From an uncultured Clostridia bacterium (GTDB lineage Bacteria; Bacillota; Clostridia; Oscillospirales; Acutalibacteraceae), in the NCBI GenBank assembly GCA_947630835.1, contig CANRIZ010000024.1, positions 1 to 37,289 of the forward strand: 37,289 nucleotides of DNA, in the 5' to 3' direction. Numbering within the stretch: position 1 is the stretch's first letter; the number at the start of each line of letters is the position of its first letter. Under the pieces are notes generated by a model. The model did no database searches. It saw only the letters and a list, made by a program, of their open reading frames with translations, and was not told the DNA's origin. The translations under genes and the position numbers were made by a program. Of the stretch, positions 1 to 14,274 are shown one piece after another.

Positions 1-402
1 ATCAACGCTCTTGAATACAAACCCGCCGATTACTCCAAGCTCAACTCCGCTCTCGCACAAGTCCCGGAAGACTTGTCAATTTACACCGACGAAAGCGTAG
101 AACGTCTTAATTCGGTTATCGACAGCTTAAACTACAACCTGAACGTAACAGAGCAAGACAAGGCGGACAAACAGGTTGAAGATTTGCTTGAAGCTATCAA
201 TTTCCTTGAAAAGCGTTACATTTTAGGCGACGTTAACCTCGACGGCGAAATTACCGTCCTTGACGCGAAATGGGCTTTGCAATACATTGCCTCCCTTCGT
301 ACTCTCGAAGCCCTCTCATTAAAATCGGCAGATATGAACCAAGACGGCAAAATTTCCGTCCTCGACGCAAAATTAATCTTAATTGCGGTGATAAGCGATT
401 AA
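1..402 (+). CDS. C-terminal end of a FIVAR/type I dockerin secreted protein (5' truncated by window edge)
   Basis: The frame is open from base 1, so the gene starts upstream of the window; 133 codons remain. They encode the end of one FIVAR helical repeat, a complete last FIVAR unit, and a type I dockerin in about the last 60 residues. The dockerin has two EF-hand-like calcium loops, GDVNLDGEITVLD and ADMNQDGKISVLD, each followed by a helix. Dockerins bind cohesin modules of scaffoldins, so the protein is probably an extracellular enzyme docked in a cellulosome-like complex or on the cell surface. The segment is almost identical to the ends of the two downstream paralogues, so this is most likely a third copy of the same subtilase family. 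Its catalytic part is not visible, so that is inferred. A TTG codon at 73 could open a shorter ORF but is internal to the domain. Confidence 0.85.
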   Translation: MNALEYKPADYSKLNSALAQVPEDLSIYTDESVERLNSVIDSLNYNLNVTEQDKADKQVEDLLEAINFLEKRYILGDVNLDGEITVLDAKWALQYIASLRTLEALSLKSADMNQDGKISVLDAKLILIAVISD

Positions 403-518
403 TCACGGCATGTCAAAGCAATACGAGGGCTAATTATGAAAGACCGATTTATTAAAATTTGCAAATTCATTACTTGCCTTTTGTGATATAACGCTAATTT
501 GGAAGGCGGTTTAAGCTT

Positions 519-2576
519 ATGAAAAAGGTATTTTCGGTATTTATGTCTTTAATACTTATGCTTTTTATGTTCAGTCCGTGCTTTGGCGTTTTTGCTGCAC
601 CCTTGCAGGAAGAACGGGAAAGCAAAGAGTTAAACAGCTTTATTAACGGAATTACGCAGCTTGTTCGGGAATATGATGCGGATAAAGAATTTACCGTTCC
701 CGACAACGACGAAACAGCCCAGATTCAAACATTTTCTGCCGAAAATACAACAGATGAAACAACGGATAACGACACATCTGAATACACCTTACAAGATTTC
801 CAAACCGCCCGTTTAATCGTCCGTGCAAATGGCAATTTTGACGACTGCAACGCATTGGAGCATATTAGCGGCTTTGAGGATTTTCATATTTTGCAGTATG
901 AAAGTCCCGAACAAGCTATGAGCGCTTATACGGATTTGCAAGCAGAAAAAAATATAACAAATGTTGCGCCCGACGAGGTTGCAGCGCCGTTGCAGGGCGA
1001 AAAAGTCGAAACCTTGACGGCAAGTGAAATTTCGGAAAAAGATTATCTTTGCGGCCGGAGCGTGGACAGAACACAGTCAAAAAGATTGCAGGAATATCTT
1101 GCGCAATCGGATATTCCTATGAAACAAGTTGTTGTTGGAGTTATTGACACAGGCGTAGACTATAACCATGAATTTTTAAAGGATCGTATTGTTAGAACAA
1201 ATTTTAACTCGTCTTCCGACGGAACCCCGGACGATGAAATGGATAACGAATACGAATGTCATGGAACAGCTGTAAGCAGTGTTATTGCAGATAATTCTCC
1301 TAAAAATATATCAATAGCCGTATATAGAGTTCTTAATGATGACGAAAGTACAACAACGAGTCAAATTTGCGCGGGATATTTAAGGGCTATCAAAGATAGT
1401 GTTGATATAATTAATGTAAGCTTGGGTCACAATGATGAATCCGGAATGGCGGAAGCTTGTATTATGCAAGCTTATTCGTGCAACATTCCCATATTCACGG
1501 CAATAGGAAACGTTCCTTACATCGATATATCCACACTTCCCGCGTGTATTGAGGAATGTATAATTGTATCTGCCACAGACGAAAACAATACAACGGTTTC
1601 GTGGAATACGCTAAGCAAATATACGGATATTTCCGCGCCCGGAGAAGATATACCCGTTGCCGTTATACATAACGGATATGAAGTATGGTCGGGAACTTCT
1701 TTTTCTGCGCCATGCGCCGCTGCGTTAGGTGCGATTTTAAAATCGATTAACCCTAAAATAACGGTTGATGAAATAGAAGCTCGATTAAAAGAAACTTCTA
1801 TAGATGTTGAAAAAAATAACTTTTATGAATCAGCGCAAGGAAACGCTTTGGACAATTATCATTCTCTGCTTGACGGCGTCGGTATGATTCAATTTTGCAA
1901 CGCGCTCGGTTTGGAAAAGCTTACAGCACCCGTGTTAAATTTAGAGGCTAAAGTTTATGTCGGCGAGCAAACCTGCACAATTACTTGTGATGACAAAAAT
2001 GCAACTGTTTTATATACCACGGACGGAACATATCCCGATTTTGAAAACGCCAATGTATATACACAGCCGTTTCAGGTTACAAAACGCACCCGTATTCGTG
2101 CTGTTGCATACTATCAGGACGGCGGATATTACAGCGACGAAGCAGAAGCTACGCCCCGTATTCAATATACGGACAGCGATGAAAATTTTGTAATCGATAA
2201 TAACGGTATCATTACAAAATACAACGGAAGCATATCCGATTTAAACGTCCCCGAAACCATAAAAGGAATTGGCGTAACGGGATTTGCTAAAGATGCGTTT
2301 AATACCGTGATTGGGTTAACGCTTCCCAAGACCGTGACAGAAATACCCGAAAGTGCTTTTATAAAAAATACAACACTTGAATTCATATATGCGGAAGGCG
2401 TATTAAATATCGGAAACTTCGCTTTTTATCAATCGGATATTAGATATTGCGATTTTCCTAAAGCCGCAAATATAGGACGGTCGGCTTTTGAGTTAACGCC
2501 CAAATTATATTATACTAATTTCCCAAGTGCAGAATATATTGGAAGAACCGCCTTTATGAATTCCGGATTAATATAG
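519..2576 (+). CDS. Dockerin-family S8 subtilisin-like peptidase, N-terminal part, ended by an in-frame TAG
   Basis: This is a secreted serine endopeptidase of the subtilisin family. An N-terminal signal peptide of about 26 residues (basic MKK, hydrophobic core, VFA cleavage region) is followed by a pro-region up to about residue 195. The S8 domain shows D210 (VIDTGVDYNHEF), H248 (CHGTAVSS), oxyanion N331 (AIGN) and S394 (WSGTSFSAP), so all catalytic residues are present. A chitobiase-C-terminal-like beta domain follows at about residues 478-545, with YTTDGTYPDF. The first BspA-type leucine-rich repeats come next. Translation stops at TAG 2574-2576 in mid-repeat. The same frame continues as 2613-4625 without further damage, and the neighbouring paralogue has serine (TCG) at this position. 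The product would therefore be an active but truncated protease lacking FIVAR and dockerin modules, or the gene is a very young pseudogene. A GAAGGCGG sequence lies about 10 nt before the ATG. Confidence 0.88.
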   Translation: MKKVFSVFMSLILMLFMFSPCFGVFAAPLQEERESKELNSFINGITQLVREYDADKEFTVPDNDETAQIQTFSAENTTDETTDNDTSEYTLQDFQTARLIVRANGNFDDCNALEHISGFEDFHILQYESPEQAMSAYTDLQAEKNITNVAPDEVAAPLQGEKVETLTASEISEKDYLCGRSVDRTQSKRLQEYLAQSDIPMKQVVVGVIDTGVDYNHEFLKDRIVRTNFNSSSDGTPDDEMDNEYECHGTAVSSVIADNSPKNISIAVYRVLNDDESTTTSQICAGYLRAIKDSVDIINVSLGHNDESGMAEACIMQAYSCNIPIFTAIGNVPYIDISTLPACIEECIIVSATDENNTTVSWNTLSKYTDISAPGEDIPVAVIHNGYEVWSGTSFSAPCAAALGAILKSINPKITVDEIEARLKETSIDVEKNNFYESAQGNALDNYHSLLDGVGMIQFCNALGLEKLTAPVLNLEAKVYVGEQTCTITCDDKNATVLYTTDGTYPDFENANVYTQPFQVTKRTRIRAVAYYQDGGYYSDEAEATPRIQYTDSDENFVIDNNGIITKYNGSISDLNVPETIKGIGVTGFAKDAFNTVIGLTLPKTVTEIPESAFIKNTTLEFIYAEGVLNIGNFAFYQSDIRYCDFPKAANIGRSAFELTPKLYYTNFPSAEYIGRTAFMNSGLI

Positions 2577-2612
2577 TTTGACGGACCGAATGTCAAAATC
2601 GGCTGCAACGGT

Positions 2613-4625
2613 ATGTTTCAGCAGTCATTAAGACTGGAAAGCGTCCGATTGCCGCAATTAACCGCAATTTCTCGTGGGACAGGCGTTTCCGGTGAATTCT
2701 ATGAAGATAATTATTTGTTTTTTATAGAAATGCCGCTGGTTGAAAATTTATTTTCCAATTCGTTTTATGGAACTAATATTTCAAATGCTGATTTTCCATG
2801 CATTAAAGAAATAAATACTAAAGCTTTTTGTAACTGTATGTGCTTGGAATATATAAATATGCCGGCGCTTCTTACTGTTCCAAAACAGGCTTTTGGAAAT
2901 GGTCCTCTTTTTGATTTTGATATAAACGCAAGTCCTCGATTTTACCGTTTGGACAGCGTAACTCAAATCGAGCAGGACGCTTTCGGAGAATATCCGACTT
3001 CACGCATCGAGTTTTCACATCTTGAAACTGCCCAAAGCTTGCCGCAGACAGAGGGCTGTATAATTGCTATGCCTTCAACTTTCAAAGAATGTACCGAAGA
3101 TACAAAGGGGCGCAATTACAAAGTCTATGGTACAAAGGGAACATATGCCGAGCAGTGGGTGAAAGAAAACGATCACGAATTTATTAATATTTCGCAAGAT
3201 ACTGCTATTTTGAAAGATGTTCCTATGGAATATACCGACAAAACGCAAACCTTGTCACCTGATGTAATCGGCTTTAACCGAACATATCAATGGTACGCAA
3301 GCGACAAGCCCGACAACACCGCCGGAACACCCATAGAGGGTGCAACGGATAGGGAGTTTAACCCCGAAGATTACCCTGCGGCTAAGTATTACTATTGTGT
3401 TGTCACAAGTACCGATGTAGGCTACGACCCAATAGAAATTAGAACAGGCGTTACGGAAAATATGACGCTCAACCCTGCCGATTATTCAAAAGTAGAAAAA
3501 GCTAAATCGGAAATCCCCGAGGACTTGTCCGTCTATACAGACGAAAGCATTAAGGCGTTGCAGGATATTTTAGACGGCATAGACTACAACTTGGACGAAA
3601 CCGAACAGAGCAAGGTTGACGATTACGCAAAGGCAATAGAAGAAGCAATCAACGCACTTAAATACAAACCCGCCGACTATACCGCATACAATGCCGCAGT
3701 TGAAAAAGCAAATGCGATAGACCGCAGTCTATACAAGGATTTAACTGCACTTGACAATGCACTTTCGGTTGATGTTAAAGATAAAAACATAACAGAACAA
3801 GCAGTAGTTGACGAACAAACAAAGGCAATAGAAGAAGCTATTAACGCCCTTGAATACAAACCTGCCGACTATACCGCATACAATGCCGCAGTTGAAAAAG
3901 CAAATGCGATAGACCGTAGTCTATACAAAGATTTAACTGCACTTGATGAAACTTTAAAAACCGATGTCAGCGGCAAGAATATAACCGAACAGGCAGTAGT
4001 CGACGAGCAGACACAGGCGATCCTTGAAGCAATAGAAAAACTTGAATACAAGCCTGCGGACTACACAGAGTATAACAAAGCAGTCGAAAAAGCTAATGCC
4101 CTTGACCGTAGTCTATACAAAGATTTAACTGCACTTGATGAAGCTTTGAATGTCGATGTCAGCGGCAAGAACATAGCGGAACAAGCGGTTGTAGACAAGC
4201 AAGCAAAAGCGATTGAAGAAGCTATCAACGCTCTTGAATACAAACCCGCCGATTACTCCGAGCTCAACTCCGCGCTTGCACAAGTACCGGAAGATTTATC
4301 AATCTATACCGACGAGAGCGTAAAACGCCTTAATTCGGTTATTGATAACTTGAATTACAATCTAAATATAACAGAACAAGACAAAGCGGACAAACAGGTT
4401 GACGATTTGCTTGAAGCTATCAACTCCCTTGAAAAGCGTTATATTTTAGGCGACGTTAATTTGGACGGCGAAATTACCGTCCTCGACGCGAAATGGGCTT
4501 TGCAATACATAGCCTCCATGCGCTCCCTTGAATCCCTCTCGCTAAAAGCCGCTGATATGAACCAAGACGGCAAAATTTCCGTCCTCGACGCTAAATTAAT
4601 CTTAATTGTGGTGGTAAGCAATTAA
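2613..4625 (+). CDS. C-terminal part of the interrupted subtilase: LRR, Ig-like, FIVAR repeats, type I dockerin
   Basis: This is the in-frame continuation of the preceding gene after the TAG at 2574-2576; the ATG at 2613 is an internal methionine of the paralogue alignment, with no convincing ribosome binding site or signal peptide. It encodes the remaining BspA-like leucine-rich repeats (about 2613-3100), an Ig-like segment ending in TSTDVGYDPIEIR (about 3205-3470), FIVAR units from about 3478 to 4430 including three central 192-bp copies, and a type I dockerin in the last 60 residues. If translated alone it would stay cytoplasmic and make little sense, so it is best read as the distal half of one 1,369-codon gene (519-4625). 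Separate expression is doubtful; nonsense mutation, readthrough or a base-calling error are the alternatives. Confidence 0.75.
   Translation: MFQQSLRLESVRLPQLTAISRGTGVSGEFYEDNYLFFIEMPLVENLFSNSFYGTNISNADFPCIKEINTKAFCNCMCLEYINMPALLTVPKQAFGNGPLFDFDINASPRFYRLDSVTQIEQDAFGEYPTSRIEFSHLETAQSLPQTEGCIIAMPSTFKECTEDTKGRNYKVYGTKGTYAEQWVKENDHEFINISQDTAILKDVPMEYTDKTQTLSPDVIGFNRTYQWYASDKPDNTAGTPIEGATDREFNPEDYPAAKYYYCVVTSTDVGYDPIEIRTGVTENMTLNPADYSKVEKAKSEIPEDLSVYTDESIKALQDILDGIDYNLDETEQSKVDDYAKAIEEAINALKYKPADYTAYNAAVEKANAIDRSLYKDLTALDNALSVDVKDKNITEQAVVDEQTKAIEEAINALEYKPADYTAYNAAVEKANAIDRSLYKDLTALDETLKTDVSGKNITEQAVVDEQTQAILEAIEKLEYKPADYTEYNKAVEKANALDRSLYKDLTALDEALNVDVSGKNIAEQAVVDKQAKAIEEAINALEYKPADYSELNSALAQVPEDLSIYTDESVKRLNSVIDNLNYNLNITEQDKADKQVDDLLEAINSLEKRYILGDVNLDGEITVLDAKWALQYIASMRSLESLSLKAADMNQDGKISVLDAKLILIVVVSN
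3475..4432 (+). repeat. FIVAR repeat block of the interrupted copy (three central 192-bp units)
   Basis: Direct repeats encode about 64-residue helical FIVAR units, recognised by KPADYT.YN at the start, a central RSLYKDLT and EQAVVD, and AIEEAI(N/E) near the end. Three central units begin about 192 bp apart (near 3670, 3862 and 4054), flanked by a divergent first unit (about 3478-3669) and a shorter last unit before the dockerin. Sequence similarity between units is high at the nucleotide level, so recombination or slippage can change copy number. Confidence 0.85.
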
Positions 4626-4743
4626 TCACGGCAAGGCAAAGCAATACGAGAGAAAATTATGTAAGATAAATTTGCAAACGCAAGAAATTCATTACTTAAA
4701 CTTTATTTGATACATAAACCAATTTGAAAGGCAGTTTAAGCTT

Positions 4744-7700
4744 ATGAAAAAGGTATTTTCGGTATTTATGTCTTTAATACTTATGCTTTTTATGTTCAGT
4801 CCGTGCTTTGGCGTTTTTGCTGCACCATTGCAAGAGGAATGGGAAAGTAAAGAGTTAACCGGCTTTATTAGCGGGATAACGCAGCTTGCGCAAGAATATG
4901 ACAAAGGTAAGGATTTTGTTGTTCCCGAAAATGACGAAACTGCGCAGATTCAGACATTTTCTGCCGAAAATATAACAGATAACTCCAATTCAAAGTACAC
5001 CTTACAGGATTTCCAAACCGCCCGTTTAATCGTCCGTGCAAATGGCAATTTTGACAACTGCAACGCATTGGAGCATATTAGCGGCTTTGAGGATTTTCAT
5101 ATTTTGCAGTATGAAAGTCCCGAAGCGGCGATTACAGCTTATGAGCAATATAAAACTATGTCGGAAATTGAAAATGTTGCACCCGACGAGGTTGTAAATG
5201 CTTTGCAGGATGAAGGATCCGATTCCGAGCTTTTAGATTCCGATATTATTAAAAATCAAAAATATCTTTGCCAATGGGGTCATGACAGGACGCAGGCAGA
5301 CAGGCTTTTAGATTATATAGAATCTTCGGCTATTGAACTAAATACGGTTACAGTCGGCATTGTTGATTCCGGTGTGGACTATAACCATGAGTTTTTAAAG
5401 AGCAGAATAAAACGAACTTATTTCAATTCATCATCTAACGGAAATCCAAACGATGAAATGGATTGTGAAGAAGCACATGGCACGGCTGTAAGCAGCGTTG
5501 TGGCAGATTATTCACCTGATAATGTGAAGATTGCAGTATATAGAATTCTCAATAGTGAGGGTTGGGCATCTGTTACGCAAGTTTGCGCCGGTTTTTTACA
5601 AGCAATTGCAGACGGCGTTAATATTATCAATGCAAGTATAGGGTTTTCAGATCATTCCGGCTTAGTTAATAAATGTGTAAATAAAGCGTATTACGAAAAT
5701 ATACCTTTATTTACAGCAGCGGGAAATGAGGGAAAGTATGCCGTGTATGAATTGCCGGCTAATGTGGCAGAGTGTATAACTGTATCTGCTACGGATGCGA
5801 ACAATACTGCGGTTAAATTTAATTCACTTACTCCGAAATCGGATATATCGGCTCCGGGGGAAAATGTTACTGTTGCTGCGTTAAATAATACATATCGCTT
5901 ATGGTCGGGTACATCCTTTGCCGCTCCTTGTGCGGCGGCGTTGGGAGCTGTTTTAAAGTCGGTTTATCCGGAAATAACGGTTGATAAGATAGAGAGCCAA
6001 TTAAAAGATACCGCATATGATGTTAAAAGATACGGTGAGTATGAATCGTCGCAAGGCAGTAACATGGACAATTATTATTCTCTATTGGATGGTTTCGGTA
6101 TGATTCAGTTTTGCGATGCTCTTGGATTAGAAAACTTTACCGCACCTGAGATTAATTTAGAGGATAAAGTTTATGTCGGCGAGCAAACCTGCACAATTAC
6201 TTGTGATGACAAAAATGCAACAATTTTATACACAACAGACGGAACATATCCCGATTTTGAAAACGCCAATGTATACACACAGCCGTTTCAGGTTACACAA
6301 CGCACCCGTATTCGTGCTGTTGCATACTATCAGGACAGCGGATATTACAGCGACGAAGCAGAAGCTACGCCCCGTATTCAATATACGGACAGCGATGAAA
6401 ATTTTGTAATCGATAATAACGGTATCATTACAAAATACAACGGAAGCATATCGGATTTATATGTTTCCGAAGCTATAAATGGGATTACAGTTAGAGGATT
6501 TGCTAAAGATTCGTTTAATAACCTGACAGGATTAACACTTCCTAAGACCGTGACTAAGATACCGGAAAAAAGTTTTTATAAAAATATATCGCTTGAATTT
6601 ATTTGCGCCGAGGGAGTTACTGATATAGGAGAGCAATCTTTTGAAAATTCACAGCTTATGTATGCCGAATTTCCAACCGCAAAAAATATGGGAAATTCCG
6701 CTTTTGCTTATACTTCCCGTTTCTGTTTGGGCAGTTTTCCTAATCTTGAAGATATGGGTAGAAATGCTTTTATGTATTCAAATATTATTTCGTTTAATTG
6801 CCCGAACATAAAAGCGTTATATAATGGGAGCTTTGTATGGTGTGCAAGACTTGAATCGGTTTATCTTCCGCAATGTACCGAAATTATCTTTACCTCTTCC
6901 TTTGAAGGGACTTTCTACGAGTGTTCCAGATTGTCTGTTATTGAAATCCCTTTATTGAAGTGTACATACTTTTATGCTACATTTTATGACACGGGTATTA
7001 TGCAATCGGATTTTCCATTTATTGAACAAATATCACCTCGGGATTTTTATGACTGCTCTTTATTAGAGATTATAAATATGCCGTCTTTATTATCCGTTCC
7101 CGAAGAAGCTTTTAACGGAAGGAATAATTCAGGTGGTACAAAGCCTCGGTTATTCCGTTTGGACAGTGCAACTCAAATCGGACAGGACGCTTTCGGAGAA
7201 TATCCGACTTCACGAATTGAGTTTTCACATCTTGAAACTGCCCAAAGTCTGCCGCAAACAGAGGGTTGTATAATTGCTATGCCTTCAACTTTCAAAGAAT
7301 GTACAGAAGATACCGTAGGCAGGAATTACAAAGTCTATGGTACAAAGGGAACATATGCCGAGCAGTGGGCGAATGAAAACGGCCACGAATTTATTAATAT
7401 TTCGCAAGATACTGCTATTTTGAAAGATGTTCCTATGGAATATACCGACAAAACGCAAACTCTTTCTCCCGATGTCATAGGCTTTAACCGAACATATCAA
7501 TGGTATGCAAGCGACAAGCCGGACAACACCGCCGGAACACCCATAGAGGGCGCAACGGATAGGGAGTTTAACTCCGAAGATTACCCTGCGGCTAAGTATT
7601 ACTATTGTGTTGTCACCAGTACCGATGTAGGCTACGACCCAATAGAAATCCGTACAGGCGTTACGGAGAATACAACGCTCAACCCTGCCGATTATTCAAA

Positions 7701-9024
7701 AGTAGAAAAAGCTAAATCGGAAATCCCCGAGAATTTATCACTATACACAGACGAAAGCGTTAAGGCGTTGCAGGATATTTTAGATAACATAGATTACAGC
7801 TTGGACGAAACCGAGCAATCGGTTGTTGACGATTACGCAAAGGCAATAGAAGAAGCTATCAACGCCCTTAAATACAAACCTGCCGACTACACCGAGTATA
7901 ACAAGGCAGTCGAAAAAGCAAATGCCCTTGACCGTAGTCTATACAAAGATTTAACTGACCTTGATAATGCCTTATCGGTTGATGTCAGCGGTAAGAACAT
8001 AACCGAACAAGCGGTTGTAGACAAGCAAGCAAAAGCGATTGAAGAAGCTATCAACGCCCTTAAATACAAACCTGCCGACTACACCGAGTATAACAAGGCA
8101 GTCGAAAAAGCAAATGCCCTTGACCGTAGTCTATACAAAGATTTAACTGACCTTGATAATGCCTTATCGGTTGATGTCAGCGGTAAGAACATAACCGAAC
8201 AAGCGGTTGTAGACAAGCAAGCAAAAGCGATTGAAGAAGCTATCAATTCCCTTGAGTACAAACCTGCCGACTATACCGCATACAATGCCGCAATCGAAAA
8301 GGCAAATGCTCTTGACCGCAGTTTATACAAAGATTTAACTGCACTTGATGAAGCCTTAAAAACCGATGTCAGCGGTAAAAACATAACAGAGCAATCGGTT
8401 GTTGACGAACAAACAAAAGCGATTGAAGGAGCAATCAACGCCCTTGAATACAAACCTGCCGACTATACCGCATACAATGCCGCAATCGAAAAAGCTAATG
8501 CCCTTGACCGTAGTCTATACAAAGATTTAACTGCACTTGACAATGCACTTTCGGTTGATGTTAAAGATAAAAACATAACAGAACAAGAAGTAGTTGACGA
8601 ACAAACAAAGGCTATCCTTGAAGCAATAGAAAAACTTGAATACAAGCATGCTGATTACTCCAAACTCAACTCTGCTCTTGCACAAGTGCCGGAAGACTTG
8701 TCGATATATACCGACGAGAGCGTAAAACGCCTTAACTCGGTAATTGAAAACCTAAATTACAACCTAAACGTCACCGAACAAGACAAGGCAGACGAACAAG
8801 TTGAAGCCTTACTTGAAGCAATCAACGCTCTTGAAAAGCGTTACATTTTAGGCGACGTCAACCTTGACGGCGAAATTACCGTCCTCGACGCGAAGTGGAC
8901 TTTGCAATACATAGCAGCTCTGCGTTCGCTTGAAGCTCTCTCGCTAAAAACCGCGGATATGAACCAAGACGGCAAAATTTCCGTCCTCGACGCTAAGTTG
9001 ATATTAATTGCCGTAATAAGTTGA
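4744..9024 (+). CDS. Secreted S8 subtilisin-like peptidase with LRR, FIVAR repeats and type I dockerin (intact paralogue)
   Basis: This 1,426-residue extracellular modular protease has a signal peptide at about 1-26, nearly identical to that of the upstream copy, and a pro-region to about 195 that includes an I9-like core ending VAPDEV. The peptidase shows D208 (VDSGVDYNHEF), H245 (AHGTAVSS), N328 (AAGN) and S391 (WSGTSFAAP). A chitobiase-C-like beta domain spans about 476-541 and BspA-type leucine-rich repeats about 560-857. An Ig-like segment precedes FIVAR units from about 982, including four central 64-residue copies, and the type I dockerin is at about 1367-1426 (GDVNLDGEITVLD and ADMNQDGKISVLD). 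No LPXTG motif is present, so attachment would be through cohesin-dockerin binding. The LRRs and beta domain probably bind substrate or host ligands and the FIVAR run is a spacer stalk; both are inference. A GAAAGGC sequence precedes the ATG by about 11 nt. A strong terminator follows and closes the array. Confidence 0.92.
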   Translation: MKKVFSVFMSLILMLFMFSPCFGVFAAPLQEEWESKELTGFISGITQLAQEYDKGKDFVVPENDETAQIQTFSAENITDNSNSKYTLQDFQTARLIVRANGNFDNCNALEHISGFEDFHILQYESPEAAITAYEQYKTMSEIENVAPDEVVNALQDEGSDSELLDSDIIKNQKYLCQWGHDRTQADRLLDYIESSAIELNTVTVGIVDSGVDYNHEFLKSRIKRTYFNSSSNGNPNDEMDCEEAHGTAVSSVVADYSPDNVKIAVYRILNSEGWASVTQVCAGFLQAIADGVNIINASIGFSDHSGLVNKCVNKAYYENIPLFTAAGNEGKYAVYELPANVAECITVSATDANNTAVKFNSLTPKSDISAPGENVTVAALNNTYRLWSGTSFAAPCAAALGAVLKSVYPEITVDKIESQLKDTAYDVKRYGEYESSQGSNMDNYYSLLDGFGMIQFCDALGLENFTAPEINLEDKVYVGEQTCTITCDDKNATILYTTDGTYPDFENANVYTQPFQVTQRTRIRAVAYYQDSGYYSDEAEATPRIQYTDSDENFVIDNNGIITKYNGSISDLYVSEAINGITVRGFAKDSFNNLTGLTLPKTVTKIPEKSFYKNISLEFICAEGVTDIGEQSFENSQLMYAEFPTAKNMGNSAFAYTSRFCLGSFPNLEDMGRNAFMYSNIISFNCPNIKALYNGSFVWCARLESVYLPQCTEIIFTSSFEGTFYECSRLSVIEIPLLKCTYFYATFYDTGIMQSDFPFIEQISPRDFYDCSLLEIINMPSLLSVPEEAFNGRNNSGGTKPRLFRLDSATQIGQDAFGEYPTSRIEFSHLETAQSLPQTEGCIIAMPSTFKECTEDTVGRNYKVYGTKGTYAEQWANENGHEFINISQDTAILKDVPMEYTDKTQTLSPDVIGFNRTYQWYASDKPDNTAGTPIEGATDREFNSEDYPAAKYYYCVVTSTDVGYDPIEIRTGVTENTTLNPADYSKVEKAKSEIPENLSLYTDESVKALQDILDNIDYSLDETEQSVVDDYAKAIEEAINALKYKPADYTEYNKAVEKANALDRSLYKDLTDLDNALSVDVSGKNITEQAVVDKQAKAIEEAINALKYKPADYTEYNKAVEKANALDRSLYKDLTDLDNALSVDVSGKNITEQAVVDKQAKAIEEAINSLEYKPADYTAYNAAIEKANALDRSLYKDLTALDEALKTDVSGKNITEQSVVDEQTKAIEGAINALEYKPADYTAYNAAIEKANALDRSLYKDLTALDNALSVDVKDKNITEQEVVDEQTKAILEAIEKLEYKHADYSKLNSALAQVPEDLSIYTDESVKRLNSVIENLNYNLNVTEQDKADEQVEALLEAINALEKRYILGDVNLDGEITVLDAKWTLQYIAALRSLEALSLKTADMNQDGKISVLDAKLILIAVIS
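7687..8850 (+). repeat. FIVAR repeat block of the intact copy (four central 192-bp units, two of them identical)
   Basis: This is the same FIVAR architecture as in the upstream paralogue but with four central 192-bp units (starting near 7880, 8072, 8264 and 8456) instead of three. Positions 7849-8054 are identical base for base to 8041-8246, a 206-bp match at an offset of 192, showing a very recent exact unit duplication. Confidence 0.9.
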
Positions 9025-9049: not shown

Positions 9050-9083
9050 AAGCCTCCCGATTTATGCTTTCGGGAGGCTTTTT
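9050..9083 (+). terminator. Rho-independent terminator of the dockerin-protease array (probably bidirectional)
   Basis: An 11-bp stem pairs AAGCCTCCCGA (9050-9060) with TCGGGAGGCTT (9070-9080), with a 9-nt loop and a run of five T at 9079-9083. On the minus strand the same hairpin is followed by AATTTTTG, so it can also end the convergent gene at 9092-9694. It is the only terminator found in the first 9 kb; the spacers after 402 and 4625 have none. Confidence 0.88.
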
Positions 9084-9739: not shown

Positions 9740-10105
9740 TTATTCCTTACCTTCCTTTTTTGAAAAAACCGTGCCTATTCCCGAAATTACAAGAAAAAAC
9801 CCGAAAATTATTCTAAGCATCGATTCGGGAATTGTCTTAATAAACAGGTTGCCGATAAACACACCTATAATTCCGCCGAAAATCATAGGCAGAATTTTTT
9901 TAAATTTTATAAGCCCGTTTTTATAATATATATAAAGCGAGGCTACGGAGCAGGGGATAAAGAAAAACAGATTTTTGCCCTGCGCCTTTAGCTGCGGGGT
10001 GTTTTTAAATAGCGTTAAGTAGAGTATAAGCACTCCGCCGCCGCCCAAGCCCATGGAGCTGATAACCGCCGAAATAACGGCGGCAATAATGTCAACAGTA
10101 TTCAT
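9740..10105 (-). CDS. Half-length TauE/SafE-family membrane transporter subunit B
   Basis: The 121-residue protein corresponds to one repeat of the TauE/SafE (sulfite/organosulfur anion exporter) fold, whose usual members are about 250 residues and carry two such repeats. It has a glycine-rich first helix (SSMGLGGGGVLILYL), a middle helix pair with GGIIGVFIGN, and a last hydrophobic helix with GFFLVISGIGTV, which are characteristic family positions. Its ATG overlaps the TGA of the upstream half-length paralogue by 4 bp, so the two are translationally coupled and probably form a hetero-oligomer equivalent to one full-length transporter. Substrate is unknown; family members export sulfite, sulfonates or related anions. 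Confidence 0.8.
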   Translation of the reverse strand: MNTVDIIAAVISAVISSMGLGGGGVLILYLTLFKNTPQLKAQGKNLFFFIPCSVASLYIYYKNGLIKFKKILPMIFGGIIGVFIGNLFIKTIPESMLRIIFGFFLVISGIGTVFSKKEGKE

Positions 10106-10455
10106 CTTTTAACCGCCAGACGTATTCCCGCCCAAATCATAAACAGCCCGAATACGATTTTTGCCGCTTTATTTGAAATTTTGCTTAAAATTTTCGTTCC
10201 TATAAGCGCTCCTATAACGGCGCAGGGTATAAGATAAATGTTTTCGTAAAAATTGACATGACCGTTAATAAAGTATATAATTAAGCTGATAATTGTAATG
10301 GGGAAAATTACGGCTATGGCATTTGCCTGAGACTGTTTTTGGGTAAATCCTGCTTTGTTTAAAAGCTTTACCGCTACTATTCCCGCGCCGGCGCCCAAAA
10401 TGATATTAATCGCGCCGATTAGAATTCCGCTTAGAAATAAGACCGACTTTTTCAT
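10102..10455 (-). CDS. Half-length TauE/SafE-family membrane transporter subunit A
   Basis: The 117-residue protein is a single TauE/SafE repeat with about four hydrophobic segments: GILIGAINIILGAGAGIV at the N-terminus, then SQANAIAVIFPITIISL, IPCAVIGALIGTKIL, and KIVFGLFMIWAGIRLA at the end. The order of glycine-rich helix 1, QANA loop, GALIG helix and F/G-rich final helix is that of the N-terminal half of full-length family members. It overlaps the next gene by ATGA. It is transcribed divergently from the PH-domain-like gene that starts 45 bp away, so promoters must lie in or overlap this short gap. A role in anion export is inferred from the family only. Confidence 0.8.
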   Translation of the reverse strand: MKKSVLFLSGILIGAINIILGAGAGIVAVKLLNKAGFTQKQSQANAIAVIFPITIISLIIYFINGHVNFYENIYLIPCAVIGALIGTKILSKISNKAAKIVFGLFMIWAGIRLAVKR

Positions 10456-12480: not shown

Positions 12481-14274
12481 ATGACACTCACAACAAACAA
12501 GAGCATACTTGATTGGATTGATGAGAAGGTTGAGCTTGTCAAGCCCGACAGCATTGTTTGGATTGACGGAAGCGAGGAACAGCTCGAGGAGCTTCGCAAG
12601 CAGGCGTGCGAAACCGGAGAAATGATTAAGCTTAACGAGGAGCTTCTTCCCGGTTGCTATTATCACAGAACAAAGCCCAACGATGTTGCAAGGGTTGAGG
12701 ACAGAACGCTTATTTGCTCTAAAAAGGAAGAGGACGCGGGCCCCACGAACCACTGGATGGCTCCCGAAAAAGCATATAAAATGCTTTATGATATTGCAAG
12801 GGATTCTTACAAGGGCAGAACCATGTATGTAATTCCTTATTCAATGGGTCCCGTAGGTTCGCCCTTCTCAAAGGTAGGTATTGAGCTTACAGATTCTATC
12901 TATGTTGTTCTTAATATGGCTATTATGACCCGCGTCGGCAAAAAGGTAATGGACGCTTTCCTCGACGATTCAAACGATTGGGTCAGAGGGCTTCATTGCA
13001 AATGTGACGTTGACGCAGAAAAAAGATGGATTTGCCAGTTCCCCGAGGACAATACCATAATTTCCGTCAATTCCGCTTACGGCGGAAACGTGCTTCTCGG
13101 CAAAAAGTGCTTTGCGCTTCGTATTGCTTCGTATCAGGGCAAAAACGAAGGCTGGCAGGCCGAGCATATGCTTATACTCGGAATTGAAAATCCGCAGGGC
13201 GAGGTTAAATACGTCTGCGCCGCTTTCCCGTCGGCTTGCGGCAAAACAAACCTTGCTATGCTTATTCCTCCCGAGGGATACAGAAAGAAAGGCTACAAGG
13301 TTTGGTGCGTAGGCGACGATATTTCCTGGATTCGTAAGGGCGAGGACGGCAGACTCTATGCCATTAACCCCGAAAACGGATTTTTCGGCGTTGCTCCCGG
13401 TACGAACGATAAATCAAATCCCAACGCTCTTGCGGCTACAAAAAAAGGTACAATCTTTACCAATGTTGCGAGAAACCTTGACAACAACACCGTTTGGTGG
13501 GAAAGTCTTGACAAAAATCCGCCCGTCAATGCAGAGGAGTGGACAGGTATTAAAACAAACGGCGTAGAGTGGAAAGCCGAGGGCAAAAACCTTGCTCATC
13601 CGAATTCGCGTTTTACCGCTCCTACAGAGAATTGCCCCTGCCTTTCTCCCGAGTTTGAAAATCCGCAGGGCGTTCCGATTTCAGCCTTTGTATTCGGCGG
13701 CAGACGCGCAAAGTTAGCTCCGCTTGTATATCAGTCAAGGGATTGGAATCACGGCGTGTTTGTAGGCGCTACCATGGCTTCCGAAACAACGGCGGCAGCC
13801 GCAGGCGCAGTCGGCGTCGTTCGCCGCGATCCTATGGCGATGCTTCCTTTCTGCGGCTATCATATGGCTGATTATTGGCAGCATTGGATTGACATAGGCA
13901 AAACGCTTGACCCCGACAAAGCTCCTAAGATATTCAACGTAAACTGGTTCAGAAAAGATGACGACGGCAACTTTATGTGGCCCGGATTCGGCGATAACCT
14001 TCGCGTCCTCGAATGGATAATCAAACGCTGTGAGGGCGAGGTTGACGCTAAGGAAACCGCGATAGGCTATCTTCCCTATGCCAAGGATATTAACCTTGAG
14101 GGCCTTGAAGGCGAGGTTACCGAGGAGTCGCTTGAAAAAATCCTTGACGTTGACAAGGAGCTTTGGAAAGAGGAAGCAAAGGGAATTGAGGAATTTTTCG
14201 CAAAATTCGGCGACAAGGTTCCCGAGGAGCTTGAAGAAAGCCTTGCGACTCTTAAAGCAAATCTTGATAAATAA
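12481..14274 (+). CDS. pckG: Phosphoenolpyruvate carboxykinase (GTP)
   Basis: The enzyme interconverts oxaloacetate + GTP and PEP + GDP + CO2, feeding gluconeogenesis or, in fermenters, fixing CO2 toward oxaloacetate/succinate. The 597 residues match the GTP-dependent family, distinct from the ATP-type found in many bacteria. Visible hallmarks are the substrate-binding VIPYSMGPVGSP, the NSAYGGN loop, the kinase-1a/P-loop AFPSACGKTN with the reactive cysteine C253 and Mg-binding T256, VGDDISWI (kinase-2), FFGVAPGTN, and the guanine-binding NWFRKDDDGNFMWPGFGDN. Cytoplasmic. It is transcribed alone from its own promoter and ends at a strong hairpin shared with the convergent transporter gene. 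Confidence 0.97.
   Translation: MTLTTNKSILDWIDEKVELVKPDSIVWIDGSEEQLEELRKQACETGEMIKLNEELLPGCYYHRTKPNDVARVEDRTLICSKKEEDAGPTNHWMAPEKAYKMLYDIARDSYKGRTMYVIPYSMGPVGSPFSKVGIELTDSIYVVLNMAIMTRVGKKVMDAFLDDSNDWVRGLHCKCDVDAEKRWICQFPEDNTIISVNSAYGGNVLLGKKCFALRIASYQGKNEGWQAEHMLILGIENPQGEVKYVCAAFPSACGKTNLAMLIPPEGYRKKGYKVWCVGDDISWIRKGEDGRLYAINPENGFFGVAPGTNDKSNPNALAATKKGTIFTNVARNLDNNTVWWESLDKNPPVNAEEWTGIKTNGVEWKAEGKNLAHPNSRFTAPTENCPCLSPEFENPQGVPISAFVFGGRRAKLAPLVYQSRDWNHGVFVGATMASETTAAAAGAVGVVRRDPMAMLPFCGYHMADYWQHWIDIGKTLDPDKAPKIFNVNWFRKDDDGNFMWPGFGDNLRVLEWIIKRCEGEVDAKETAIGYLPYAKDINLEGLEGEVTEESLEKILDVDKELWKEEAKGIEEFFAKFGDKVPEELEESLATLKANLDK

Follow-up and report, generated by a model that had tools for sequence, protein, structure and literature searches.

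Probable exchange of peptidase–LRR cassettes among surface subtilase genes of an uncultured Clostridia bacterium

We analyzed a 37,289-nt stretch of DNA from an uncultured Clostridia bacterium (GCA_947630835.1, contig CANRIZ010000024.1), hereafter the window, which begins with a tandem array of genes for subtilases carrying leucine-rich repeats (LRR) and a dockerin. The window is contig 24 of its own genome, G000 (2.10 Mb, 39 contigs); other G numbers denote genomes of relatives, and G035a and G035b are family genes within G035. Three tandem units were found on the plus strand at the contig start, W1 (1–402), W2 (519–4625), and W3 (4744–9024), as an earlier sequence-only reading had proposed (at least three paralogues); further members are encoded elsewhere in G000. 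Pfam families Peptidase_S8, Fn3_assoc, LRR_5, and Dockerin_1 were identified in the array. The order in W3 was a signal-like N-terminus, pro-region, S8 peptidase, Fn3/chitobiase-like beta domain, BspA-type LRR, post-LRR domain, 192-bp repeats, and type I dockerin. In the following list, all on the plus strand, blocks near-identical between W2 and W3 are called frame blocks and the strongly diverged ones cassette blocks.

1–402: W1, truncated upstream family member of which the contig start leaves the 3' portion (end of the repeats and dockerin), 352/399 identical to the end of W2
403–518: W1–W2 spacer, 116 nt
519–4625: W2, subtilase–beta–LRR–repeat–dockerin gene broken by TAG at 2574–2576 (open reading frames (ORFs) and Pfam)
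783–911: W2 pro-region core, frame block, aligned with 4996–5124
1125–1847: W2 peptidase, cassette block, edges approximate from alignment
1941–2262: W2 beta domain
2310–2946: W2 LRR, cassette block with the TAG, edges approximate
2955–3473: W2 post-LRR domain, frame block (alignment)
3628–4252: W2 192-bp repeats, 3.3 copies (repeat analysis)
4446–4601: W2 dockerin (Pfam)
4626–4743: W2–W3 spacer, 118 nt (alignment)
4744–9024: W3, intact gene, 1426 amino acids (ORF and Pfam)
4744–4824: W3 signal-peptide region, frame block (signal peptide judged by eye)
4996–5124: W3 pro-region core, frame block (alignment)
5344–6063: W3 S8 peptidase, cassette block (Pfam)
6163–6483: W3 Fn3/chitobiase-like beta domain (Pfam)
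6541–7152: W3 BspA-type LRR, cassette block (Pfam)
7165–7683: W3 post-LRR domain, frame block (alignment)
7809–8587: W3 192-bp repeats, 4.1 copies (repeat analysis)
8848–9003: W3 dockerin (Pfam)
9052–9083: terminator-like stem after W3 (8 bp, 11-nt loop, T run; by eye)

Subtilase membership was clear (PF00082, 5.9e-36 in W3 and 7.1e-37 in W2); PF13306 (BspA-type LRR) scored over the cut-off in W3 and both W2 pieces, and PF00404 (type I dockerin) in all three units. The nearest NCBIfam name, type VII mycosin, reached 98.1 and 89.6 bits, below its curated cut-off of 278.75. The FIVAR domain of the sequence-only reading was not recovered: no FIVAR family matched W1, the W2 pieces, or W3 at E ≤ 0.001, and "FIVAR-like" is a mere label for the 192-bp repeats. 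W2 follows the domain plan of W3 except for the in-frame TAG inside its LRR, where W3 has TCG, so 519–4625 is not a single open frame. TAG is the stop of 1 of the 21 window ORFs tallied; in W2 it may be fixed, variable, or a sequence error. A family member of G004 (L063) also has its frame broken in the LRR, and the shared location may be accidental, a sequencing error, or a sign of a weak spot.

The near-identical scaffold blocks of W2 and W3 do alternate with diverged peptidase and LRR blocks, as had been read from the letters alone. Identical aligned bases amounted to 81/81 in the signal region, 127/129 in the pro-region core, 300/316 in the beta domain, 476/515 in the post-LRR domain, and 137/156 in the dockerin, compared with 455/720 in the peptidase and 350/609 in the LRR; the beta domain acts as a further frame block in this pair. 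The two differences claimed for the pro-region core stood, while its first-copy coordinates had been placed one base off (784–912). The spacers were identical at 85 of 115 aligned bases, in line with the claim that the whole unit, spacers included, was duplicated. Among codons for the same residue, 36/330 differed in the signal region, pro-region core, beta, and post-LRR blocks taken together, against 115/233 in the peptidase and LRR (Fisher 4e-24). The proportion of synonymous differences (pS) in 40-codon windows ran from 0.00 to 0.90 along the pair, being mostly 0–0.5 in conserved blocks and 0.45–0.90 in the late pro-region, peptidase, and LRR; the uniform profile named earlier as a refuting result was thus not seen. 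Because the contrast is present at synonymous sites, constraint alone cannot yield this mosaic, and recombination can.

Translated search of G000 revealed seven 5' ends (W2, W3, 26B, 5c, 27p, 2p, 31p) and seven 3' ends (W1, W2, W3, 26A, 26B, 5c, 20p) of the main dockerin-bearing family. These correspond to seven members: four of full length, one of them with the TAG, and three split by contig ends. Four more distant subtilase–LRR genes (1x, 5a, 5b, 5d) were also present. Several contigs of G000 end inside family members; those of 2p and 31p end on an identical 77-mer, as would be expected for an assembly break at shared sequence. The 120 nt 5' of 2p (L020) are near-identical to the region upstream of 27p, yet the signal peptide of 2p is of the W2/W3 kind; a further breakpoint probably lies near the 2p start codon. 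The peptidase matched 22 of the 39 genomes of the genus search, own genome included, with 11 matches in G000 and 4 in the runner-up; in a family-level draw of 300 genomes, again with the own one, 12 matched at E ≤ 1e-30. A first scan of genome contigs with the peptidase found no relative, and a scan with the post-LRR profile gave 29 loci. The related records are labelled uncultured Clostridia, Oscillospiraceae, or Ruminococcaceae; some include sample words such as "Lapin" (G035, G033) and, for more distant ones, sheep rectum or goat cecum, from which we take the word gut used below.

Types of peptidase and LRR cut across genomes. W2 groups with G020; 26B with G035a, G036, G024, and G004; 27p with G005; and G026, G002, and G035b group with the 2p and 31p peptidases and the 26A LRR. 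The nearest peptidase (76% amino acid identity) and LRR of W2 are those of G020, another species, and not those of W3. A single clade of own copies was rejected by the approximately unbiased (AU) test in the peptidase (p 6.5e-5) and the LRR (p 2e-8). The diverged blocks are thus old types common to several species and did not arise as copies that drifted apart where they stand. Synonymous divergence of the cassettes between types is near saturation, and the LRR is the most diverged block (30–58% amino acid identity between most types). Within types the block omega (dN/dS), a check suggested earlier, was 0.05–0.38 where computable, with some pairs saturated: selection is purifying on average, and no block shows a sign of positive selection.

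Peptidase and LRR vary together. Their distance matrices were strongly correlated (Mantel r 0.92, n = 13; 0.90, n = 12, with G035a left out); for the peptidase against the late pro-region r was 0.56–0.61, and against the signal region or pro-region core −0.13 to 0.02. In 12 of 15 rows the LRR and the peptidase had the same nearest neighbour; agreement with the LRR was 10/15 for the late pro-region and 9/15 for the beta domain, falling to 3/15 for post-LRR, 3/13 for signal, and 2/13 for pro-region core (three partial rows left out). The two blocks thus behave in these alignments as one linked cassette and are not freely shuffled.

The clearest exchange case is that of 26B and G035a. Nucleotides 340–2560 of their coding sequences, a 2.2-kb cassette, have 14 mismatches (99.4% identity), and the edges are sharp, with identity of 0.70–0.88 in coding windows upstream and 0.68–0.96 downstream. 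Same-residue codons differ at 6/546 in the peptidase, beta, and LRR blocks and at 41/183 in the pro-region core and post-LRR. The frames differ at about the housekeeping level of G000 versus G035 (pS 0.31 for phosphoenolpyruvate carboxykinase (PEPCK), 0.32 for TsaD, 0.54 for MutS). The two genes are sisters in the peptidase (100/100), beta, and LRR trees, and the AU test rejects their sisterhood for the post-LRR block (p 4e-4) and for the pro-region (p 0.0045). Their neighbourhoods differ: for one gene next to G035a, nothing matched in G000, G033, G020, or G024, and, apart from its own place, one gene next to 26B was matched only weakly in five genomes. A recent move of the cassette between species would account for this; the same pattern would result if the whole gene had arrived and its frame had been overwritten afterwards.

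The candidacy of G033 as a close relative, raised by its PEPCK (98% amino acid identity), was rejected on MutS (67%) and TsaD (73%); pS values against G000 were 0.29, 0.78, and 0.71, respectively. The GTP-type PEPCK gene lies in the window at 12481–14274, and its far lower pS to G033 suggests that PEPCK may itself have been exchanged between the two lineages, making it a poor yardstick.

The genes 3' of W3 are kept in G035 (91–98% amino acid identity over six ORFs; 0.83–0.97 nucleotide identity in windows from 8998 on), and the locus equivalent to W3 is occupied there by the family member G035b. With its 5' part not covered, G035b has identities to the window of 0.89–0.93 in the beta domain, 0.65–0.93 in the post-LRR domain, and 0.44–0.69 in peptidase and LRR windows; by this comparison, it is a carrier of another cassette type. 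The genes 5a and 5b of contig 5, which lack a dockerin, have a pS of 0.00 in columns 1–180 and from 901 on, and of 0.54–0.65 in peptidase and 0.45–0.65 in LRR windows. Over the whole length, 5a pairs with a G035 gene (pS 0.00–0.09) and 5b with one from G033 (pS 0.00–0.24), the latter despite the distant MutS of that genome. LytTR response regulators and GHKL kinases are encoded upstream of 5a (L017:7914–9912) and 5b (L017:14694–16785); the kinase genes match different neighbours in G035 and G033 (41–95%), and these regulators seem to have been reshuffled too.

The catalytic Asp, His, Asn, and Ser, the oxyanion Asn included, were present in 17/17 peptidases. At 20 presumed pocket positions the mean entropy was 1.86, with 1.27 across the domain (p 0.0004). 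When each type was represented by a single sequence, the values were 1.77 and, for the rest, 1.13 (p 0.0003); the layout ranked first among 172 slid along the domain, and these positions were more variable than the rest within types as well (p 0.0095).

All seven copies with a visible 5' end begin with a start codon and a signal-like N-terminal segment; an arrangement of the vls kind, in which promoterless copies feed one expressed copy, accordingly does not seem to hold for these seven. Promoter and terminator scans gave no more than the shuffle level. The stem at 9052–9083 was not listed by the terminator scan, which allows loops of 3–8 only, and no such stem was seen by eye in either spacer. 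Family members of G000 and G035 end in a dockerin, and those of G037, G004, G005, and G033x have an LPXTG-like end (by eye); the ends are of another kind in G020 and G024, and cut or short in G036, G002, and G026. Of the shared secretion and docking frame proposed earlier, the docking part is thus not universal; the differing anchors fit a single task, surface attachment. Dockerin matches numbered 57 in G000, 31 in G035, and 5–10 in nine relatives, which points to an expansion particular to the first two. Against these 57, a cohesin search of G000 gave a single hit above the cut-off, a second protein having two weak ones. Candidate docking partners are L024:7330–7977 (216 amino acids, single cohesin, C-terminal hydrophobic stretch) and L025:8243–10465 (741 amino acids, weak cohesin hits and a dockerin; more cohesin-like repeats and an LRR by eye).

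Genes for an ECF-type (extracytoplasmic function) sigma factor and a DUF4367 protein adjoin family genes in three genomes: next to 31p in the own genome, in G026, and in G024 (L021:12817–14044, L059:5037–6252, and L061:4544–5759). These family genes may be controlled by an envelope signal. Further downstream in the window, on the minus strand (9740–10455), a TauE/SafE-type transporter was encoded as two ORFs in reversed order, the first matching profile positions 128–237 and the second 4–112; both halves are also adjacent in G035 (91% and 98%).

Identity shifts abruptly inside conserved frame blocks, and the way in which cassettes and frames are shared requires exchange between copies and between species. 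We consider it likely that the family consists of surface-attached subtilases whose peptidase–LRR specificity cassettes are exchangeable and pass from copy to copy, both inside a species and across species, by homologous recombination. Its recombination and cassette part is held with high confidence; the target-specificity part is tentative and falls slightly short of an even call. Each gene would encode a subtilase that is secreted, carries an LRR module, and ends in an attachment domain (in the array, a dockerin). The signal peptide, pro-region core, post-LRR domain, repeat stalk, and anchor would form a resident frame, into which the late pro-region, peptidase, beta domain, and LRR would plug as a cassette. 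The LRR would capture or present a target protein and the peptidase would cut it with a matching pocket, so that a new cassette would retarget the surface protease with secretion and docking unchanged. Recombination around the diverged modules, which the sequence-only reading had assumed, thus holds up; diversification in place gives way to old cross-species types and one recent interspecies move. Ancient divergence without inter-copy exchange, named there as a counter-finding, is half right, the divergence being old and the exchange real. Conceivable, if rather doubtful, is a wider picture of a cross-species pool of matched protease and LRR cassettes in gut Oscillospiraceae and relatives, recombining homologously into whichever surface frame, dockerin or sortase, a species has; this would make a retargetable system for recognising and cutting proteins, with diversity kept by an arms race or negative frequency dependence.

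Several observations weigh against this explanation. The longest-silent-run test was weak over ten own-genome pairs: W2–W3 had p 0.014 uncorrected, five of the ten were above 0.05, and only 5c–27p (p 0.003) would survive correction. The contrast between frame and cassette is absent in W2–G020 (p 0.6) and G036–G024 (p 1). Peptidase distances correlate weakly with the post-LRR domain (Mantel 0.28–0.40) and clearly with the beta domain (0.71–0.74), and DNA proximity alone may link peptidase with LRR. Own frames do not form one clade either (AU p 4e-12 in the post-LRR; weakly, p 0.021, in the pro-region). In the post-LRR tree the G000 and G035 copies stand apart from other genomes (100/99), in groups common to both; homogenisation thus follows lineage and is incomplete. 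No block-level sign of positive selection was found within types (omega < 1), which leaves an arms race unsupported. The genomes are drafts, probably metagenome-assembled, with one per species; the housekeeping baseline of three genes is thin; and the pocket positions are ones that we take to be substrate-binding segments by motif, from the subtilisin pocket layout.

Purifying selection on the frames with drift of peptidase and LRR, in a family that does not recombine, would agree with the better protein conservation of frame blocks between species too. Yet the synonymous contrast refutes it for W2/W3, 26B/G035a, and 5a/5b, and in 26B/G035a the contrast is reversed, with a near-identical cassette in different frames; we regard this alternative as extremely improbable. 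Just as improbable is recent whole-gene duplication followed by rapid positive selection on the peptidase and LRR: the variability of pocket positions within types would suit it, but the high cassette pS, the closeness of the W2 cassette to G020 rather than W3, and the low omega all contradict it. An assembly or binning artefact, in which chimeric joins or repeat collapse produced the mosaic, is very unlikely. The contig ends inside the family, including the shared 77-mer, are in its favour, and collapse could partly have caused the perfect identity of 5a and 5b, which spans 703 nt. However, the frames of W2, W3, and 26B are several percent apart, their longest exact matches being 69–115 nt, the same peptidase–LRR pairings recur in other assemblies, and 26B and G035a have different neighbours.

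Two alternatives accept cassette exchange and differ in its purpose. If host antibodies selected for variable surface antigens, with cleavage specificity secondary, one would expect proteins that are surface-attached, variable, and exchanged, with the LRR most diverged, as here; we nevertheless think this unlikely, since the catalytic residues are invariant, variation is concentrated at the inferred pocket positions, peptidase–LRR coupling is retained, and omega is below 1. Exchange for food, each type serving a different dietary or host protein in a partition of niches with no arms race, is possible but on the unlikely side. It is favoured by the purifying omega and by dockerin-bearing peptidases in fibre degraders, as described in the available parts of PMC2930009 and PMC5590126, but the present results are equally compatible with antagonism or defence.

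The exchange pattern suggests that the peptidase and LRR, as a unit, decide specificity and that the remainder is interchangeable packaging. If the cassette explanation is true, it would be a likely means for gut bacteria to retarget surface proteases, and the types would form a natural library of paired recognition-and-cleavage modules, with protease targets approachable type by type.

We failed to find a description of subtilase–LRR–dockerin cassette exchange, judged by titles and the starts of abstracts, in a literature search that covered few subscription papers. Type I restriction specificity subunits have conserved segments that permit swaps of specificity domains between alleles; they serve cytoplasmic DNA recognition and are not proteases. 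The streptococcal IgA1 protease is a metalloprotease, not a serine protease. Its genes resemble the present family, in the portion of PMC2444020 available, as surface protease genes with a patchy distribution over related commensals, at one shared locus or at other places; they differ in that they vary by being present or absent and not by exchanging cassettes. In Borrelia vls (PMC3828179, seen in part), paralogous variable segments are likewise shaped by recombination, but there unexpressed cassettes feed one expression site, whereas here every copy whose 5' end is visible is equipped with a separate start and signal region. Dockerin-attached proteases or LRR modules also occur in Ruminococcus flavefaciens FD-1 and Pseudobacteroides cellulosolvens, and one peptidase-dockerin binds the surface cohesin ScaE (PMC2930009, PMC5301203, PMC5590126); the accessible parts of these papers do not describe a subtilase and LRR in one protein or cassette exchange. 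The role of dockerin-linked peptidases was undefined by experiment as of 2017, according to the accessible part of PMC5590126. Also comparable are the tandem immunity paralogues esaG and tipC of type VII secretion, within S. aureus and S. mitis genomes (PMC9484751, seen in part), in which high-similarity blocks carry homologous recombination. As in esaG, conserved blocks here flank variable ones and block trees are discordant; those are small immunity proteins, not secreted proteases, and have no protease–LRR cassette. Dockerin-peptidases, dockerin-LRR proteins, and recombination through conserved blocks of tandem paralogues (esaG) are thus already known from the source portions consulted; what appears to be new, relative to the literature searched, is a coupled cross-species protease–LRR cassette on frames with different anchors.

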